Made by a program: the position numbers and the translations under genes. From Xylanimonas ulmi (GTDB lineage Bacteria; Actinomycetota; Actinomycetes; Actinomycetales; Cellulomonadaceae): DNA of 64,000 nucleotides. Shown here one piece after another: positions 3,978-36,683 of this stretch (position 1 is its first letter; every line of letters begins with the position of its first letter). Location: contig NZ_SGWX01000001.1 of assembly GCF_004216535.1 (NCBI RefSeq), forward strand, positions 310,001 through 374,000, in the 5' to 3' direction. The notes beneath the pieces are model-generated. The model made no database searches and was not told where the DNA came from. It saw nothing but the letters and a program-made list of their open reading frames with translations.

Positions 3978-5193
3978 CGGTACCGCCGGGGTGCGTCGTG
4001 GGGATGTGGGCGCGGACGGCGAACCCGCCGTCGTCGCGTGCCGCCGAGTCGAAGCGGCCGCCGGCGGCGAGCGCTCGTTCGCGCAGCCCGATGAGGCCGC
4101 TGCGCGATCCGATACCTTGCACCTGCCGGCCATCGCGGCGTAGCCCGTTGACGACCTGGATCTCGAGCTCGTCGGGTCGCCAGGTCAGGTGCACCCGGAT
4201 GTCGGACCCGGGTGCGTGCTTGAGCGCGTTCGTCAGGGATTCCTGGACGATGCGGTATCCGGCGAGGTCCCCGCTCGTGGTCAGCGGCTGGGGCTCACCC
4301 TCGAGGTGGAGGGTGATGCGGGCCCCTGACGCGCGGAACTCGGAGACGAGTCGCTCGACATCGCCCATCCCCGGCGAGGGTGTGCGTGCCTCCACGGTCG
4401 CCGTGGTCTCCCCACCGTCCTCGCGCAGCACACCAACGGTGGTGCGCAACTCGTCCAGCGCCTCGCGGGTGTGTCGGGCGATGTCCTTCACGGCGGCGCC
4501 AGCCCCGGGCTGTCCCTCCTCGACCAGGTACTCGGCGACGGACGCCTGGGCGTTGACGAGCGTCAGGCGGTGGGCGAGCGCGTCGTGCAGCTCGCGTGCG
4601 ATCCGCATCCGCTCGTCCACGACCGCCCGGCGAGCGTGCTCGGCGCGGGCCTGCTCCTGCCGGTGGATCCGCTCCCGACGGGACGACTGCGCGGCACCGA
4701 CGACTGTCGCGAGCACCACGGTGTCGAGCATGACGAAGTCGGTGGTGACCAGCCCTGACCTGCCCGCCACCAGGCCGGTGACAAACAGCGCCGCGGCGGC
4801 CACGACCCCGGGCGCCCAGCCACGAAGCCCGGGGTGGCGGGCGGCGAGGGTCCACGCGGCGAAGGACGTCGCGAGCGGGACGGGCTGGTACGCCCCCAGG
4901 CCCACCGCGTCTGCGAGCCCATGGGCGTCGACTGGGAGAACCACGATGTGCAGACACTCGACCACGGCCGTGCCGACGAGCGCGACCAGCGGGTACGGCC
5001 TTCGCGCCGCGAGGGGCGCCCACGCGCCGACGACGAACACCAGGAGCAGCCCATCGGGCGCCTTCCACGAGCCCTCGTACAGCCAGGACACGCTGAGCAT
5101 GGCCACGAGAACGACGAGTAGGACGACGGACTCGGTCAGCCACGTCCGCGTTCTCGAGACCGGCTTCACCGGCCCGCTGATCGCGTCCCTCAC
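3967..5193 (-). CDS. Sensor histidine kinase (HisKA_3 / DesK-LiaS type)
   Basis: A membrane sensor kinase of about 408 residues. The N-terminus has four to five hydrophobic segments with no large extracellular loop, then the dimerisation motif RELHDALAHRLTLV with the phosphorylated His, and a HATPase_c domain (GYRIVQESLTNALKHA; GSRSGLIGLRERA). I prefer GTG 5193 because GGGGAG lies nine bases upstream. An in-frame ATG at 5250 would give 427 residues but lacks a ribosome site. Its neighbours (regulator, MMPL protein, BcrA-type ABC) match cell-envelope or antibiotic-stress modules of Gram-positive bacteria. The signal is unknown. Confidence 0.9.
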   Translation of the reverse strand: MRDAISGPVKPVSRTRTWLTESVVLLVVLVAMLSVSWLYEGSWKAPDGLLLVFVVGAWAPLAARRPYPLVALVGTAVVECLHIVVLPVDAHGLADAVGLGAYQPVPLATSFAAWTLAARHPGLRGWAPGVVAAAALFVTGLVAGRSGLVTTDFVMLDTVVLATVVGAAQSSRRERIHRQEQARAEHARRAVVDERMRIARELHDALAHRLTLVNAQASVAEYLVEEGQPGAGAAVKDIARHTREALDELRTTVGVLREDGGETTATVEARTPSPGMGDVERLVSEFRASGARITLHLEGEPQPLTTSGDLAGYRIVQESLTNALKHAPGSDIRVHLTWRPDELEIQVVNGLRRDGRQVQGIGSRSGLIGLRERALAAGGRFDSAARDDGGFAVRAHIPTTHPGGTDER

Positions 5194-8643: not shown

Positions 8644-9449
8644 GCACCACGATCACCACCGATGTCGGCGCACCGCGGACCGTGCCGTACCGGCAGACCA
8701 TGGCGACGGTCATCCGGTTCGAGTGGATCAAGGCACGCAGCCTGTCCAGCACCTGGTTCCTCGCCGGTGCCGTGATCGCGCTGATGATCGCCTTCGCCAT
8801 CATCGCAGCCGCGGTCCAAGGCGCCGACACCCCCGACGACGCGGTCACGACGATCATGTCCGGGGCCTCCATCACCGTCCTGGTCATCGGCATCCTCGGC
8901 TGCCTCACGGGCGCTCGCGAGTACGGCTCACGGATGATCGCGGCGACGATGTCCGCCGTCCCCAGGCGGTGGAAGGCTCTGGCAGCCAAGGCCATCGTGC
9001 TCACCGGCCTGAGCGTCGTGACCGCAGCGATCGCCGTCGCCGGCGCGTTCTTCATCGGCGCCGCCGTCCTGTCCGGGAACGGCGACCCTGCCCCCGCACT
9101 CGGTGACCCCGGGGTCCTGGGCGACCTGCTGGGCATGGTGCTCTACCTGACCGTGGTCGCACTGATCGGCCTCGGGGTCGGGCTGCTGCTGCGGAACGTG
9201 GCAGGCAGCATCGGGACCGTCGCCGCCGGGCTGCTGCTTGTCCCCGGGCTGATGGCCGGCCTGCTCCCCGACAGCTGGGGCCCGGCAGTGCTCAAGTTCA
9301 TGCCCAGCGAGGCCGCAGCCGGCATCACCACCGTGTACGGCACCGGCTCAGAGTCGCTCGGCGCAGGAGCCGCGATCATCGTCGAGCTCGCGTGGGTCAT
9401 CGTTCTGGTCGGCGGAGCCGTCGTCGCAGTCAACCGGCGGGACGTCTGA
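8640..9449 (+). CDS. ABC-2 type membrane permease of the BcrA-type exporter
   Basis: A 269-residue membrane protein. The N-terminus VIRFEWIKARSLSSTW is the usual cytoplasmic entry of ABC-2 permeases, followed by about six hydrophobic helices (for example FLAGAVIALMIAFAIIAAA and LGMVLYLTVVALIGLGVGLL). The final helix ends in VAVNRRDV. It forms the membrane part for the ATPase immediately upstream, with which it overlaps by 4 nt. Substrate unknown; antimicrobial peptides are the usual substrates in this context. Confidence 0.9.
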   Translation: MSTTITTDVGAPRTVPYRQTMATVIRFEWIKARSLSSTWFLAGAVIALMIAFAIIAAAVQGADTPDDAVTTIMSGASITVLVIGILGCLTGAREYGSRMIAATMSAVPRRWKALAAKAIVLTGLSVVTAAIAVAGAFFIGAAVLSGNGDPAPALGDPGVLGDLLGMVLYLTVVALIGLGVGLLLRNVAGSIGTVAAGLLLVPGLMAGLLPDSWGPAVLKFMPSEAAAGITTVYGTGSESLGAGAAIIVELAWVIVLVGGAVVAVNRRDV

Positions 9450-13181: not shown

Positions 13182-14318
13182 TCAGGTGGGCCGGACGAGG
13201 ATCTGGCCCGGCAGGATGAGGTCGGGGTCGTCCCCGATGACGGCGCGGTTGGCCTGGTGCCAGGCGAGCATGGCGGCGAGAATCTCGCCGTCGGTCGGTC
13301 GGCCGCCGAGGTCGCGCGCGGCGATGTCCCAGAGCGTGTCGCCGCGCGCCACGACGACGGTCTCGGCGCCACGCGAGGTCGGCGCCGGTGTGACGATGAC
13401 AGGCGAGATCTCCTCCGTCGGCGCCGACGTGCCCGGGGTCTGGGGGGTTCGCGATGCCCCCGCAGTGGCCGCATCTGCCGTCGCGGACCCGGACGTCCCG
13501 GCGCCTGTGGAGGCGTGCGACGGCGTCGGGGCCGACGTGGGCGCCTGCGTGCTGGCCGCGGCGGAGGCGGACGGCGTCGTCGCTGAACCGGCGGGGGTCC
13601 CAGAACTCCCCGGCGTGGCCGCGCCCGCGGAGGCCGGGGCGGGGTTCGCCGCGGGGGACGGGCCCGCTGAGGGGGTGAGGTCCGAGGCTGCGGAGCGGTC
13701 TGCGGTGGGGGACTGGGCCACCGTGGGCGACAGCGCCGCGGTGGACCGCCAGGCGAGGTCGAGCCCGCCACTGGCGTTCGCGCCGACAGTGAGGATCGCC
13801 CCGGCGCCGGAGTCGCGCCCCGCGCCGCCTGCGCCGAGCGCGCTCGGGCCGGCGCCATCAGGGAAGCGGGCGCCCTCGTCGACGCCTCCCTCATGGATGG
13901 CGTCACCCTGCGCGACGGCGGCGATCGGATCGGGCGGCGCGGTCGCGGCGAACGCCGCCGCGGGCGTGAGCGCGAGCGAGGCGCCGACGCCGACGCCCGC
14001 GCCGACCCGCACGAGCCGCCGCACGACGCCGGGCGCCATGCAACGCACCACGGCCTCACCCGCATGCCAGCGCGCTCCGGCGCGCGAGCAAACGACGACG
14101 GCGAGTCCGAGCAGCGCGCTGACCCCCACCCAGGTGGCCGCAATCGCCGCGGCGGCGAGGACGCCGAGTTCGACCCAGTCTTCGACTCGTGCCGCGGGCG
14201 AATGGGCCTGCGGCCAGATCGCGACAGCGCGCGAGACGAGCGCTGCCACTGCCGCGCCGAGTCCGGCCGCGAGTGAGAAGAGCGGTCCGACAGTGATCGG
14301 GCGGCTTCGCGGCCTCAT
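13182..14318 (-). CDS. LysM-domain membrane/envelope protein
   Basis: A 378-residue protein. Two or three N-terminal hydrophobic segments are followed by a signal-like AAFAATAPP site near residue 130, a long Ala/Ser/Thr/Pro-rich low-complexity stretch (about 210-315), and one C-terminal LysM domain (VVARGDTLWDIAARDLGG to GQILVRPT). LysM binds the N-acetylglucosamine backbone of peptidoglycan, so the tail probably anchors in the wall. ATG 14318 was chosen because AAGGAG lies five bases upstream; the longer frame starting at 14447 has no such site. No catalytic domain is visible. Confidence 0.85.
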   Translation of the reverse strand: MRPRSRPITVGPLFSLAAGLGAAVAALVSRAVAIWPQAHSPAARVEDWVELGVLAAAAIAATWVGVSALLGLAVVVCSRAGARWHAGEAVVRCMAPGVVRRLVRVGAGVGVGASLALTPAAAFAATAPPDPIAAVAQGDAIHEGGVDEGARFPDGAGPSALGAGGAGRDSGAGAILTVGANASGGLDLAWRSTAALSPTVAQSPTADRSAASDLTPSAGPSPAANPAPASAGAATPGSSGTPAGSATTPSASAAASTQAPTSAPTPSHASTGAGTSGSATADAATAGASRTPQTPGTSAPTEEISPVIVTPAPTSRGAETVVVARGDTLWDIAARDLGGRPTDGEILAAMLAWHQANRAVIGDDPDLILPGQILVRPT

Positions 14319-29501: not shown

Positions 29502-30158
29502 ATGCCCATCCTCGAACCAGTCAAGCCCACCATCCTCGCCACGCGGATGATCCCGAACGTCGACCGCGGCTACGCGGCCAAACTCGGGCTCAGCGACGCG
29601 CAGCGGTCGATCGGCCTGATCACGTGCGACATCGACGACTCGCTGTACGTCTCGCTCGACGAGGCCACCAAGTTCGCCGAGGTCGACGTCGTGTACGCCA
29701 AGAGCTTCTACGCGGGCTCGGGCTACCCATCGGGCCCCCTGTCCGGCGAGATCATCGGCATCCTCGCCGGCCCCGACCCGGCCGAGGTGCGCGCCGGAAT
29801 GGACGCCTGCATCGCCTATTGCGAGGAGGAGGCGTGGTTCTACTCGGCGAATGAGGCCGGTGACCTGACCTTCTTCCCGCACCTGATCAGCTCGACCGGC
29901 TCGTACCTGTCGCAGGGCGCGGGCATCGCGCGCGGGCAGTCGCTGGCCTACCTCATCGCGCCGCCGCTCGAGGCGACGTACGGACTCGACGCGGCGATCA
30001 AGGCCGCCGAGGTCGAGATGAAGGTCTTCTACGAGCCGCCGTCGGAGACCAACTTCGCGGGCGGCCTGCTGACCGGCTCGCAGAGCGCGTGCCGTGCGGC
30101 GTGCGCCGCGTTCCAGGACGCGGTGCTCGACGTCGCGGCCTCGCCCCGCAAGTACTGA
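29502..30158 (+). CDS. eutL: Microcompartment shell protein EutL
   Basis: A 218-residue tandem-domain (BMC-T) shell protein of the usual EutL length. Diagnostic stretches are ATRMIPNVDRGYAAKLGL, GLITCDIDDSLYVSLDEATK, YAKSFYAGSGYPSGPLSGE and a C-terminal PPSETNFAGGLLTGSQSACR. EutL trimers have a large gated central pore thought to admit bulky cofactors. The gene lies between eutC and eutE, as in enteric operons. Confidence 0.95.
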   Translation: MPILEPVKPTILATRMIPNVDRGYAAKLGLSDAQRSIGLITCDIDDSLYVSLDEATKFAEVDVVYAKSFYAGSGYPSGPLSGEIIGILAGPDPAEVRAGMDACIAYCEEEAWFYSANEAGDLTFFPHLISSTGSYLSQGAGIARGQSLAYLIAPPLEATYGLDAAIKAAEVEMKVFYEPPSETNFAGGLLTGSQSACRAACAAFQDAVLDVAASPRKY

Positions 30159-31739: not shown

Positions 31740-32334
<595 letters not shown>

Positions 32335-32347
32335 GGGGTGACTGGTG

Positions 32348-33076
32348 ATGGGTCGCATCGCAGTCAGTGCCGCTGACGTCCGTGCGGCCGGCGAGGGCGG
32401 GCGGCTCGTGCTGCCCGCTCGGGCGGTGGTCACGCCCCTCGCACGCGAGGTGGCCCGTGACCTGCGCGTCACCCTGGTGGACGACACGCCTGCGGCGGGG
32501 CAGACCTCGCCGCAGGCGCCCGCCACGCCGGTCCACACGCCGGTCCAGCCAACGCCGGGACCCGGGCCGTCGTCGACGGCGGGACCTGGCGCCCCGACGC
32601 CCGGACTCGCCGGGCAGTGCGCCGACGGCGTCGAGGCCCGCGTGCGGGCGATCGTCGCGTCGGTGCTGGGCGCGGTCGCGCCCACGTCCGCCCCGCCGCC
32701 CGCTCCCACGCCCGCACGCCCGGTCGTCCTGGCCCGCGCGTGTGACGCGCCGCTGGCGCCGTTCGGGCACCCGGGCCCCGAGCCCGGCCAGGACGTGCGC
32801 ACCGTCGACGTCGTGACGTCCGCCCATGGCGCGCCCATGGCGGCCGGCTACATGACGCTGACCAAGGGCTCGTTTCCCTGGACGTTGACCTACGACGAGG
32901 TCCAGGTCGTGCTCGAGGGCGAGCTGCGCATCGGCACGAGCGACGGCGAGCGCGTCGGACGCCCGGGCGACGTGCTGTACGTGCCCAAGGGCTCGCGCAT
33001 CACGTTCGGCACGCCGGGATGGGCGAAGTTCGTCTACGTGACCTTCCCGGCCGACTGGGAGGGGCAGGCGGGGTGA
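32348..33076 (+). CDS. eutQ: EutQ-like cupin protein with N-terminal module
   Basis: A 242-residue protein in four parts: a roughly 40-residue N-terminal module (VSAADVRAAG, then LPARAVVTPLAREVARD), a Pro/Thr linker, a short amphipathic helix at 93-110 (DGVEARVRAIVASVLGAV), a second linker, and a C-terminal cupin (about 145-240; TYDEVQVVLEGELRIGTSDGE, GDVLYVPKGSRITF). EutQ has been reported as an acetate-kinase-like factor also needed for compartment formation. The start ATG is 13 nt after eutM and the stop overlaps eutT by 4 nt. Confidence 0.9.
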   Translation: MGRIAVSAADVRAAGEGGRLVLPARAVVTPLAREVARDLRVTLVDDTPAAGQTSPQAPATPVHTPVQPTPGPGPSSTAGPGAPTPGLAGQCADGVEARVRAIVASVLGAVAPTSAPPPAPTPARPVVLARACDAPLAPFGHPGPEPGQDVRTVDVVTSAHGAPMAAGYMTLTKGSFPWTLTYDEVQVVLEGELRIGTSDGERVGRPGDVLYVPKGSRITFGTPGWAKFVYVTFPADWEGQAG

Positions 33077-33891
33077 TCCTCACCGAGGCTGACCTGCGCG
33101 ACCGCCTGCGCCGGCCCGTTGCCGGGGCGGTGGTGGCCGTGCCGCCGGGCGTGCGGCTGACGCCGGCCGCGGCCGACTTCGTCGCGCAGTGGAAGCTCGA
33201 GTTGACGCAGGAGCCCGCCGACATGACCAGGCAGACGCCCGCCACGCCGACGCCCCCGCAGGGGGGCGGCCAGGCCACGCAGCCCGCCGCACCCGCCCGA
33301 CCCGACTGGGACGCCGACGCGTCGTTCCCGGTGGACCGGGACGCGACACCGCTGTGCACGCAGTGCGGCTGCGCCGTGACCGCCAAGCCCGCGTGGCTGA
33401 CGCAGCTCAACCACAACCACTATGTGGCCAAGACACATCCGCGCATCGTGCTGCGCGGCCAGCTCGACACCCTCGGCGCCCAGCTCCTGGCCGCGGCTGC
33501 CGAGGCGTTGGCCGCCGGGCAGCAGGAGGCCGGCGCCAACCTCGCCACGCTCGCCGCCTACTGCCGCGAGCTGCTCAGCGCCGAGTACAACGAGCGTCCG
33601 GCGGGTGAGCTGGTCATGGCGGGGTGGGACGACGAGCGGATCCACCGGGCGACCCACGACCCCGTCACCGAGGTCGGCGTGCCGCATATGACGCTCACCG
33701 AGCGGTCGGCGCCGCTGCAGCACCACGTCAACCTGGCCCGCGCCCGGTCGCGCGAGGTCGAGGTCACCGCGGCGGGCGTCTTCCCCAGCCCGCACCACCC
33801 CTACGGCGCCTCGGTCTGCCAGGGCCTCAACCGCCTGTCCTCGGCGTGCTACCTCGTCCAGCTGCTCCTGGCGCGCGGGGGTGTCACGTGA
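33073..33891 (+). CDS. eutT: Cobalamin adenosyltransferase EutT
   Basis: A 272-residue protein. The N-terminal module (LTEADLRDRL, VPPGVRLTPAAADF) is shared with EutQ and EutD, followed by a Pro/Gln linker. The catalytic part starts with the metal-binding LCTQCGC and HNHYVAKTHPRIVLRGQLDTL and ends in a helical bundle (HHPYGASVCQGLNRLSSACYLVQLLL). It makes adenosylcobalamin, the cofactor of EutBC. It uses a GTG start overlapping eutQ (GTGA) and overlaps eutJ by 4 nt. Confidence 0.92.
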   Translation: MILTEADLRDRLRRPVAGAVVAVPPGVRLTPAAADFVAQWKLELTQEPADMTRQTPATPTPPQGGGQATQPAAPARPDWDADASFPVDRDATPLCTQCGCAVTAKPAWLTQLNHNHYVAKTHPRIVLRGQLDTLGAQLLAAAAEALAAGQQEAGANLATLAAYCRELLSAEYNERPAGELVMAGWDDERIHRATHDPVTEVGVPHMTLTERSAPLQHHVNLARARSREVEVTAAGVFPSPHHPYGASVCQGLNRLSSACYLVQLLLARGGVT

Positions 33892-34766
33892 GCGAGGCCA
33901 CCGGCGAGCGTGCCGCGCAGGGGATCGACGAGCGTGTCGACGCCCTCATGGCACGCGCCCGCGCGGCGATCGACTTCCCGCAGCCGATCGCGCTCGACGT
34001 GCCCATCCGCGTCGGCGTCGACCTCGGCACCGCCTACACCGTCATCACCGTGACCGACGCCGAGGGCGTCCCGCTCGCCGCGGCGACGACGTTCGCCGAC
34101 GTGGTGCGCGACGGCGTCGTGTGGGACTTCGCGGGCGCGTCGGCCGTGGTGCTCGGTCTGCGCGAGGACCTCGAGCAGGCGACCGGGCGGCGGCTGGCGT
34201 GCGCCGCGGTGACCCTGCCGCCCGGCGTCGACGTCTCCGACGCGCGCGCCCACCGCTACGTGCTCGAGTCGGCGGGCATCGAGTGCGTCGCCGTCATCGA
34301 CGAGCCCACCGCGGCCAACGCCGTCCTGCGGCTGCGCGAGGGCGCCGTGGTCGACATCGGTGGCGGCACCACGGGCACCGCCGTCGTGCGCGGCGGCGTC
34401 GTGGTCGCGACCGACGACGAGCCCGGCGGCGGGACCCACCTGAGCCTCGTGCTCGCCGGAGGGCTCGGCATGTCGTTCGAGGAGGCCGAGCTGCTCAAGC
34501 GTGACGCCGCCTTCCAGAAGCGCTACCTCCCGCTGGCCGTGCCCGTCTTCGAACGGCAGGCGGGCATCGTGGCGCGTGCCGTGGCCGGGTACGAGGTGAC
34601 CCAGATCGTGCTGGTCGGCGGCACCTGCGCGTTCGCCGGGATCGACCGGGTCGTGGCCCGGGTCACCGGCGTTCCGTGCGTCGTCGCGCCCGAGCCCGCG
34701 CTGGTGACCCCGCTCGGGGTCGCCGCCTTCGCCCCGACCATCACCGAGGACGGTGCCCTGCCATGA
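33888..34766 (+). CDS. eutJ: EutJ chaperonin-like protein
   Basis: A 292-residue actin/Hsp70-like ATPase: VGVDLGTAYTVITVTD (phosphate 1), VVDIGGGTTGTAVV (phosphate 2), VAVIDEPTAANAVLRL and VLVGGTCAFAGIDRVV (adenosine motif). This is the EutJ family, found only in eut operons and presumed to help fold or load lyase or cargo. The GTG start overlaps the eutT stop by 4 nt; its stop overlaps the next shell gene by 4 nt. Confidence 0.93.
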   Translation: MSEATGERAAQGIDERVDALMARARAAIDFPQPIALDVPIRVGVDLGTAYTVITVTDAEGVPLAAATTFADVVRDGVVWDFAGASAVVLGLREDLEQATGRRLACAAVTLPPGVDVSDARAHRYVLESAGIECVAVIDEPTAANAVLRLREGAVVDIGGGTTGTAVVRGGVVVATDDEPGGGTHLSLVLAGGLGMSFEEAELLKRDAAFQKRYLPLAVPVFERQAGIVARAVAGYEVTQIVLVGGTCAFAGIDRVVARVTGVPCVVAPEPALVTPLGVAAFAPTITEDGALP

Positions 34767-35416
34767 CCGCCGACGCACGCTCCCGCACGCGCGAGGCCTT
34801 CCAGTTGCGCGCCTACTGCCACATCGACCGCATGCAGCCGCAGTTCGCGGCGTTCATCGGCACCATCACCCAGGGCGACCCGGTCGTGGAGGGGTGGGCG
34901 GCGCTGTACGTCGAGATGGCGCCCGGCAACTGGGTCTTCCCCATCGTCGACCGCGTGGTCAAGTCGACCGACGTGCGCCCCGGAAGCCAGATCGTCGAGC
35001 GGCACTACGGCATGTTCGAGGTGCACTCGGGCTCGCAGGCCGACGTGCTGCGGGCCGGCGAGGTGGTGCTCGAGGAGCTGGGGCTCGCGCAGTCGGAGCG
35101 GATGCGCCCGCAGGTCGCGTCGGTGCAGGTGGTCACCAACGTCAACCCGTTCCAGTGCCAGCTGCTCAACCGCTTCAACCGCGGGTCGATGATCGTCGCG
35201 GGCGAGACCATGCTGGTGCTCGAGGTCGAGCCCGCCGCGTATGTCACGCTCGCCGCCAACGAGGCCGAGAAGGCCGCGGCCGTCCGGCTCAACCACTTCT
35301 CCTCGGTCGGCGCGTTCGGGCGGCTGTGGATGTCGGGCACCGAGGCCGACGTGCTGGCCGCGCGCGACGCCGCGCTGACCGCGCTCGAGGCGATCGACGG
35401 AGTCGACCATGCGTGA
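34763..35416 (+). CDS. Tandem-domain BMC shell protein (BMC-T-like)
   Basis: A 217-residue protein with two BMC-like halves. The first includes WAALYVEMAPGNWVFPIVDRV and YGMFEVHSGSQADVLRAGEVVLEEL (about 45-107). The second has GSMIVAGETMLVLEVEPAAYVTLAANEAEKAA and SSVGAFGRLWMSGTEADVLAARDAALTAL (about 141-210). It is not EutL, which is present separately, and it is unlike the single-domain EutS or EutK of enterics. A permuted trimeric (BMC-T) protein similar to those in actinobacterial aminopropanol/Rhodococcus-Mycobacterium compartments is the best guess. The ATG overlaps eutJ. Confidence 0.75.
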   Translation: MTADARSRTREAFQLRAYCHIDRMQPQFAAFIGTITQGDPVVEGWAALYVEMAPGNWVFPIVDRVVKSTDVRPGSQIVERHYGMFEVHSGSQADVLRAGEVVLEELGLAQSERMRPQVASVQVVTNVNPFQCQLLNRFNRGSMIVAGETMLVLEVEPAAYVTLAANEAEKAAAVRLNHFSSVGAFGRLWMSGTEADVLAARDAALTALEAIDGVDHA

Positions 35417-36683
35417 GTCGGCGTGGCCCGAGTCGGCGTGGCCCGAGGCGCCGCCGCGCGCCACGTCCGGGCCGCGCCCCGTCGCGGGTCACCCCGTGTG
35501 GACCCGCGCGCGGGTGCGCGACGCGGTCGGGAGCGGGCTGCGCGAGTTGCGTGTGCCGGCCGGGGCCATCCTCACCCCCGACGCCCGCGACCTCGCCCGT
35601 GACCACGGGCTGCGGCTCGTGGTGGCCGTCCCCGGAGCGCGCGTCACACCCCCCGAAGCGATCCCGGACCTGCCCGCGCAGGCCGCCGAGCGGCCAGGCG
35701 CCGCGTTCCTCGCCACCCTGCACGCGCGCGCCCGCGCGGCCGACCGCACGATCGTGCTGCCCGAGGGCGACGAGCCGCGCGTGTGCGCCGCCGCCGCCCG
35801 CGTGGTCGCCGAGCGCCTCGCCCGCGTGGTGCTGCTCGGGCCCGACGACGTCGTGCGCGCCACCGCGCGCGAGGCGGGGCTCGACCCGGACGCCGTGGCG
35901 ATCTGGGACCCGCAGACCTCCCCGCACCGTGAGGCCTTCGAGCGCCGCTACCTGGAGTTGCGCGCCCACAAGGGCGTCACCTGCGACCAGGCGCGCGCCG
36001 CGATGGGAGACGTGTCGTACTTCGGCACGATGATGGTCGAACGGGGCCTGGCCGACGGCATGGTCTCGGGCGCGGCCCACACCACCGCGCACACCGTGCG
36101 CCCGGCGCTGGAGGTCATCGGCGCCCGCGAGGACGCCGACCTCGTCTCCTCGGTGTTCCTCATGTGCCTGCCGCACGGCGGCGACGACGTGCTCGTGTTC
36201 GCCGACTGCGCGATCAACATCAGCCCCACGGCCCCGCAGATCGCGGCGATCGCGGTGACCTCGGCCCGCACAGCGCGCCAGCTCGGCGTCGAGCCGCGCG
36301 TGGCGCTGCTCTCGTACGCCACCTACGGCTCGGGCGCCGGGCCCGACGTCGACCTGGTGCGTGAGGCGACGGCGCTGGCGCGCCAGGCGGCGCCCGACCT
36401 GCCCATCGACGGACCGCTGCAGTACGACGCCGCCGTCGTGCCCGAGGTCGGCGCGCGCAAGGCGCCGGGCTCGCTCGTCGCGGGGCGCGCCACGGTGCTC
36501 GTCTTCCCCGACCTGTCGGCCGGCAACATCGCGTACAAGGCGGTGCAGCGATCGGCGGGGGCGCTCGCGGTCGGGCCGGTGCTGCAGGGCCTGCGCAAGC
36601 CGGTCAACGACCTGTCGCGCGGGGCGAGCGTCGAGGACATCGTCTCGACGATCGCCGTCACCGCCGTCCAGGCGACCGGATAG
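35409..36683 (+). CDS. eutD: Phosphotransacetylase EutD (PTA type) with extra N-terminal module
   Basis: A 424-residue protein. The catalytic part (about 95-424) is a classical phosphate acetyltransferase: RTIVLPEGDEPRV, GDVSYFGTMMVERGLADGMVSGA, INISPTAPQIAAIAVTSARTAR and DGPLQYDAAVVPEVGARKAPGS. It converts acetyl-CoA to acetyl phosphate, recycling CoA. Residues about 30-72 carry an extra module (TRARVRDAVGSGL, VPAGAILTPDARDLARDHGL) resembling the N-termini of EutQ and EutT here. Enteric EutD lacks such an extension as far as I know. The start overlaps the preceding gene by 8 nt and the 3' end overlaps the convergent MocR gene by 26 bp. Confidence 0.92.
   Translation: MRESAWPESAWPEAPPRATSGPRPVAGHPVWTRARVRDAVGSGLRELRVPAGAILTPDARDLARDHGLRLVVAVPGARVTPPEAIPDLPAQAAERPGAAFLATLHARARAADRTIVLPEGDEPRVCAAAARVVAERLARVVLLGPDDVVRATAREAGLDPDAVAIWDPQTSPHREAFERRYLELRAHKGVTCDQARAAMGDVSYFGTMMVERGLADGMVSGAAHTTAHTVRPALEVIGAREDADLVSSVFLMCLPHGGDDVLVFADCAINISPTAPQIAAIAVTSARTARQLGVEPRVALLSYATYGSGAGPDVDLVREATALARQAAPDLPIDGPLQYDAAVVPEVGARKAPGSLVAGRATVLVFPDLSAGNIAYKAVQRSAGALAVGPVLQGLRKPVNDLSRGASVEDIVSTIAVTAVQATG

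Follow-up and report, generated by a model that had tools for sequence, protein, structure and literature searches.

The 64,000-nucleotide stretch of Xylanimonas ulmi DNA analyzed here (GCF_004216535.1, contig NZ_SGWX01000001.1, positions 310,001 to 374,000; hereafter, the window) contains a eut operon, which touches on the question of how enzymes are attached to the shells of bacterial microcompartments (BMCs). EutA, EutC, EutL, EutM, EutQ and EutT were recognized in it by Pfam or NCBIfam models, as were a Pta-type EutD, EutE (an aldehyde dehydrogenase) and, encoded before EutD, a BMC-domain protein. A preliminary description of the sequence had pointed to a segment common to the N-termini of EutQ, EutT and EutD, the genes of which lie within a BMC locus, and had suggested that it may be a docking domain that gathers the three enzymes at the shell. 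The nature, probable function, distribution and origin of this segment are the subject of the present analysis.

The N-terminal module shared by EutQ, EutT and EutD

The three segments (EutQ residues 5-46, EutT residues 2-47 and EutD residues 30-73) have a pattern in common, which consists of a helix with T/S-x2-D/R-V/L-R, a strand, a helix with TPxA and a second strand. A profile built from five EutQ N-termini, with that of E. coli EutQ included in the seed, detected EutD with an E-value of 1.7e-7, a pooled profile built without EutD detected it with an E-value of 1.3e-10 (best decoy, 0.17), and the comparison of the EutT-free with the EutT-only alignment by hhalign gave an E-value of 3.3e-11. 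By the first and the last of these values, EutD and EutT are also related to EutQ residues of about 9-41, the region of the H1/H2 type. The pairwise similarity of EutQ and EutT was not significant, and chance similarity was ruled out by shuffles, decoys and permuted profiles. Within the genome of origin, the EutT-free profile matched EutD and EutQ only. These profile comparisons confirmed that the segments represent one homologous module, and the earlier claim of a shared module was borne out also by conservation and predicted secondary structure, as described below. In Pfam and NCBIfam, no match was obtained to a model specific for the module.

As for conservation, comparison of the window EutD with the one other orthologue found (G005) indicated that 37 of 44 module residues were identical (84%), with a nonsynonymous divergence (dN) of 0.104 and a synonymous divergence (dS) of 0.58, and that 271 of 324 residues were so in the Pta domain (dN, 0.104; dS, 0.42), while the flanks had drifted, with 9 of 29 residues identical in the tail and 6 of 16 aligned residues in the linker. 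Thus, in these two sequences, the EutD module is under the same constraint as the catalytic domain, and the lack of conservation that had been considered as a refutation was not seen. Nor were the predicted folds unrelated. AlphaFold2, run with disjoint alignments for the two proteins, placed helices at 12-21 and 36-45 and strands at 25-29 and 48-52 in the EutD segment (mean predicted local distance difference test score (pLDDT), 71.5; predicted template modelling score (pTM), 0.43), and helices at 4-11 and 30-39 and strands at 19-22 and 42-45 in the EutT segment (80.1 and 0.52, respectively), so that both modules are predicted, by models of moderate confidence, to have the same helix-strand-helix-strand order. 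A search of solved structures found none that matched over the module.

The module resembles encapsulation peptides, such as those of EutC, EutE, PduD and PduP and the N-terminus of PduM, in being a terminal targeting element joined to its protein by a flexible linker. However, such a peptide is a single amphipathic helix of 15-20 residues, whereas the module spans about 44 residues (42-48 among its forms) and comprises two helices as well as strands, with a conserved TPxA; the two elements co-occur in PduM, TIGR02536 and RpiB proteins. The E3-binding domain of 2-oxo acid dehydrogenases (PF02817; peripheral subunit-binding domain, PSBD) is also a small docking domain, the first helix of which resembles the TPxA helix. 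It was matched with an E-value of 0.025 by EutD and of 1e-4 by two modules at positions 2-20 of 36 only, and EutD scored 15.2 bits against a cut-off of 23.7 (positions 3-18 of 36). Kinship with PF02817 by circular permutation was rejected, as the match did not extend past positions 2-20 of 36 when tandem-doubled modules were scanned against Pfam. The linkers CcmN, CsoS2 and PduB 1-37, which are stated to tie cargo to the shell (PMC12487888), resemble the module in their described role. In the open-licence papers searched, no description was found of the module as common to EutQ, EutT, EutD or PduM.

Proposed docking to the shell and its alternatives

The function of the module may be approached from Salmonella EutQ, which is reported to remain with the cargo when residues 9-41 are deleted and with the shell when residues 62-99 are deleted, residues 1-99 being sufficient to target sfGFP (PMC12487888). 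When its first 100 residues are removed, EutQ fails to retrieve EutM in pull-down assays, and K53, D57 and Q64 of E. coli EutM matter for EutQ binding (PMC4827028); the window EutM keeps K53 and D57, and G takes the place of Q64. As the module corresponds to the H1/H2 region, the shell-binding half of Salmonella EutQ (PMC12487888), docking can be proposed for the other carriers. We therefore consider it fairly probable (roughly 0.7) that the module attaches the protein bearing it to the inner face of the shell, with EutQ serving as a bridge, EutT and EutD being tethered, and the EutD module having been acquired by fusion with an adaptor. The experimental evidence pertains to the Salmonella EutQ region, and that obtained here consists of homology, boundaries, conservation and distribution. 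Of the docking role proposed earlier, the part concerning EutQ is thus supported by experiments on the same region of the Salmonella protein (residues 9-41, PMC12487888), and for EutT and EutD we infer it.

Mechanistically, the module would be a folded unit of 42-48 residues (helix, strand, TPxA helix, strand) that contacts the inner shell face. In EutQ, a flexible linker would join it to a second, cargo-binding helical part, making a bridge between shell and cargo, and in EutT and EutD, where the module stands alone, the enzyme itself would be tethered. In carriers that have an additional peptide-like helix (EutQ, adaptors, PduM and TIGR02536 proteins), the module may bridge the shell to the core. 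H1/H2 has been described for EutQ only, where H3/H4 follows (PMC12487888); the E. coli EutQ N-terminus belongs to the same family.

Several observations weigh against this proposal. The EutM residues required for EutQ binding were placed on the assumed cytosolic face (PMC4827028), and the published Salmonella EutQ model has helices only for H1/H2, whereas helices and short strands are predicted here with moderate confidence. Salmonella and E. coli EutD lack the module, as do 26 of 28 phosphotransacetylase (PTA) frames compared, which indicates that it is not required for a PTA in general. The deeper forks of the module tree described below are weak (0.44), and the support for an adaptor origin is modest. 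Furthermore, PduM, also a carrier, stays with the cargo and not the shell when PduB 1-37 is missing (PMC9132943). This last result would be expected if the module bound the enzyme core, that is, cargo or encapsulation peptides. Such core binding appears unlikely, given the opposite behavior of the two Salmonella EutQ deletions; in addition, H3/H4 binds cargo peptides, whereas H1/H2 is reported to give no nuclear magnetic resonance shifts with the EutC peptide (PMC12487888), and the core-targeting peptide at the N-terminus of PduM could account for the location of that protein (PMC12108088).

The module might instead be a pairing domain between EutQ, EutT and EutD, with EutQ alone touching the shell. 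The presence of several carriers per operon speaks for it, but a single carrier was detected at some loci (e.g., L040, L056 and L070, on short contigs) and isolated EutQ 1-99 is monomeric (PMC12487888), which leaves this reading little chance. It is improbable, too, that the EutD module is a functionless by-product of gene fusion: only two orthologues in one genus have it and enteric EutD works without it, but in the two sequences it shows the same degree of constraint as the catalytic domain, whereas the tail and the linker on either side have drifted. A ligand-binding or regulatory domain, for which the lack of a matching solved structure would leave room for a pocket, is hardly credible on unrelated enzymes and non-enzymes that share an organelle and not a substrate.

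Distribution across microcompartment loci

Among 89 loci (16,195 frames) searched with the pooled profile, 201 frames matched at E≤1, 198 of them at E<0.01. They comprised 86 EutT, 49 EutQ, 43 other frames with a mostly N-terminal module, 18 others with a C-terminal one, 3 PduL and 2 EutD, the two classes of others being rough because single adaptors were counted as C-terminal. By protein family, the module was present in 87 of 89 EutT frames, 49 of 55 EutQ frames and 3 of 19 PduL frames, the three PduL matches having E-values of 3.4e-6, 0.0013 and, weakly, 0.021. One EutT frame (L098) truly lacks it, and another (L112) is cut by a contig end. The former, at 4297-4866, is a Treponema EutT, and the sequence immediately before it yielded no module in any of the three forward frames. 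The EutT-free profile matched in at least 15 of 251 genomes in the phylum of an Anaerolineales genome and at least 78 of 348 in that of Geosporobacter, both being lower bounds as only part of the candidates was scored in many genomes. Of 54 survey loci, 44 had a shell gene no more than about 1.5 kb away and five more had one in the wider region (49 of 54); the others were three with eutJ only, one on too short a contig (L187) and one that is not a BMC locus (L190). The matches at L190, which is to a coiled-coil protein, and at L176 are probably false or unrelated, no BMC genes having been found in 16 kb and 18 kb, respectively; the latter is to a 162-residue ACT-like protein (8758-9243, minus strand) with a weakly module-like N-terminus (E 0.0093).

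Beyond these families, six RpiB-like isomerase frames have a helix, the module and then the enzyme, PF02502 being confirmed in all four tested; RpiB with an aldolase denotes a sugar-phosphate type of BMC (PMC8217296). A C-terminal module was found on PduL at L214 and L228 besides the three above, and an N-terminal one on an aldehyde dehydrogenase in a BMC locus (L230; L236 7117-9033, minus strand), a fusion that may be either real or an artifact of assembly. Module proteins of 253-290 residues take the position of PduM in pdu loci of Bacillota, some of them with a flavoprotein-like core (PF02441). Judged from sequence, the module thus extends beyond the three enzymes to adaptors, the C-termini of PduM and TIGR02536, some PduL, RpiB and one aldehyde dehydrogenase, and the earlier idea that it gathers the three enzymes was too narrow, given its spread over many proteins and several organelle types.

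The stand-alone adaptors (~90-146 residues) consist of an N-terminal module and a short helical tail. Homology of this tail to EutQ H3/H4 was considered and not accepted: hhalign gave an E-value of 6.3e-5 and a probability of 64, and 0 of 200 permuted controls reached the score, yet common descent could not be distinguished. EutE C-terminal peptides also matched the EutQ linker (probability 51) and the adaptor tail (86), so that a shared amphipathic type and common descent look the same. At L046, the operon has, in addition to its adaptor, a further module copy in another frame (14100-14246).

In PduM (TIGR04493, PF15953) and TIGR02536, the same module forms the C-terminal part, after a core-targeting helix, with the flavoprotein-like core in Bacillota forms. 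An alignment of PduM with its slot relatives (11 rows, including two duplicates) matched the EutT-free profile at 5.4e-15 and the EutT profile at 7.5e-10, with controls run. E. coli PduM alone was not significant (E 0.25 and 0.22), the link depending on the slot relatives and family models. Among curated family models, a 94-residue adaptor matched the TIGR02536 C-terminus (2.7e-8) and the EutQ N-terminus (3.4e-5), and for TIGR02536-like proteins the match was to the C-terminal end of PduM models (about 0.002). According to the literature, PduM is not known to have homologues outside Pdu, and how it works is left to later studies; its N-terminus targets the core, and its loss partly separates core from shell (PMC12108088). 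In some Gram-positive species, the first helices are missing from EutQ, and a different mode of assembly was proposed for them (PMC12487888). In Geosporobacter (L094 and L104), EutQ lacks the module while an adaptor and a TIGR02536-like protein have it, which bears on that proposal.

On balance, we lean slightly toward the view that, besides encapsulation peptides, a second targeting system of general use exists in microcompartments, in the form of a mobile folded domain that docks to shells in loci of the Eut, Pdu and sugar-phosphate types. Its carriers, proposed with similarly restrained confidence, would be free-standing adaptors, PduM, TIGR02536, EutQ and EutT, with EutD, PduL, RpiB and aldehyde dehydrogenase added in some lineages. 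If true, this would explain PduM and supply the shell link in Gram-positive loci where EutQ lacks these helices. A domain common to EutQ, with its published shell binding, PduM, EutT, adaptors and several enzymes makes both the attachment of enzymes and the mechanism of PduM open to test by a single set of constructs. The module could also serve as a folded tag, independent of peptides, by which enzymes are loaded onto shells.

Origin of the EutD module and features of the operon

The Pta domain starts at EutD residue 100 (PF01515, E 3.8e-121), which indicates that the module is an added N-terminal piece. This domain is of the phosphotransacetylase type found in enteric (EUT1) EutD, Pta-type EutD being reported as unique to EUT1 among the loci surveyed (PMC4207490). 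A survey of EutD homologues, as the preliminary description had suggested, indicated that the module is rare on EutD: it was present in 2 of the 28 PTA frames (E. coli MaeB counted), and the alignment reached into it only in G000 and G005 among 39 related genomes, both from one genus. A second module-bearing EutD was searched for in G030, G032 and G037, and none was found. In the family, eutT occurs in four of 221 genomes: G000, G005, G443 (L053, L137) and G445 (L136). In the fetched region of the last two, no eutD was found, and a stand-alone module protein comes after the BMC gene. In Tessaracoccus (L045), the adaptor gene ends five bases upstream of eutD, the product of which is a long Pta that lacks the module.

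When 177 modules were placed in a tree, the two from EutD clustered (0.95) and grouped next with the Tessaracoccus adaptor (0.81). In a quick tree with long branches, the EutD catalytic domain was located among actinobacterial Pta rows, apart from five proteobacterial EutD. The adaptor in the same slot at L053 and L136, the adaptor adjoining eutD at L045 and the tree grouping fit a fusion origin. Most likely, EutD in this genus is an actinobacterial Pta-type domain that gained the module by fusion with the stand-alone adaptor occupying this position of the operon in sister genera.

Table 1. Coordinates of the module, its carriers and neighboring features (window positions unless a locus is named).
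Feature	Position	Strand	Remark
EutQ module, residues 5-46	32360..32485	+	Equivalent of Salmonella EutQ helices H1/H2; profiles
eutQ	32348..33076	+	Module, linker, amphipathic helix, cupin (PF06249)
EutQ linker amphipathic helix, residues 94-111	32627..32680	+	Position of Salmonella H3/H4, judged by eye
EutT module, residues 2-47	33076..33213	+	Profiles, predicted structure
eutT	33073..33891	+	Module, linker, cobalamin adenosyltransferase domain (PF01923)
EutD module, residues 30-73	35496..35627	+	Profiles, prediction, conservation
EutD linker, residues 74-99	35628..35705	+	Weak conservation
eutD	35409..36683	+	Tail, module, linker, phosphotransacetylase domain (PF01515, residues 100-419)
eutM shell protein (PF00936)	32047..32334	+	E. 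coli EutM K53 and D57 retained; Q64 replaced by G
eutL shell protein (PF00936)	29502..30158	+	Other proposed EutQ partner (PMC12487888)
BMC-domain protein, weak PF00936 match	34763..35416	+	Directly before eutD; in sister genera, stand-alone adaptor comes next
EutE C-terminal encapsulation-peptide-like helix	31668..31736	+	Judged by eye
EutC N-terminal encapsulation-peptide-like helix	28580..28639	+	Judged by eye
RpiB-like carriers	L184, L186, L187, L188, L189, L201 (L231-L235, L175)		Shell genes near five of six
Chloroflexota eut loci, module then unassigned C-terminal domain	L057 2090-2602, L062 7338-7856, L067 4444-4956, L060 7939-8529, L061 3083-3691, L081 10552-11097		

The BMC-domain protein before EutD has 217 residues and matches below the Pfam cut-off, and it is conserved upstream of eutD or the adaptor. 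In the poorly conserved EutD tail (35409-35495), ESAWP occurs twice as a small repeat.

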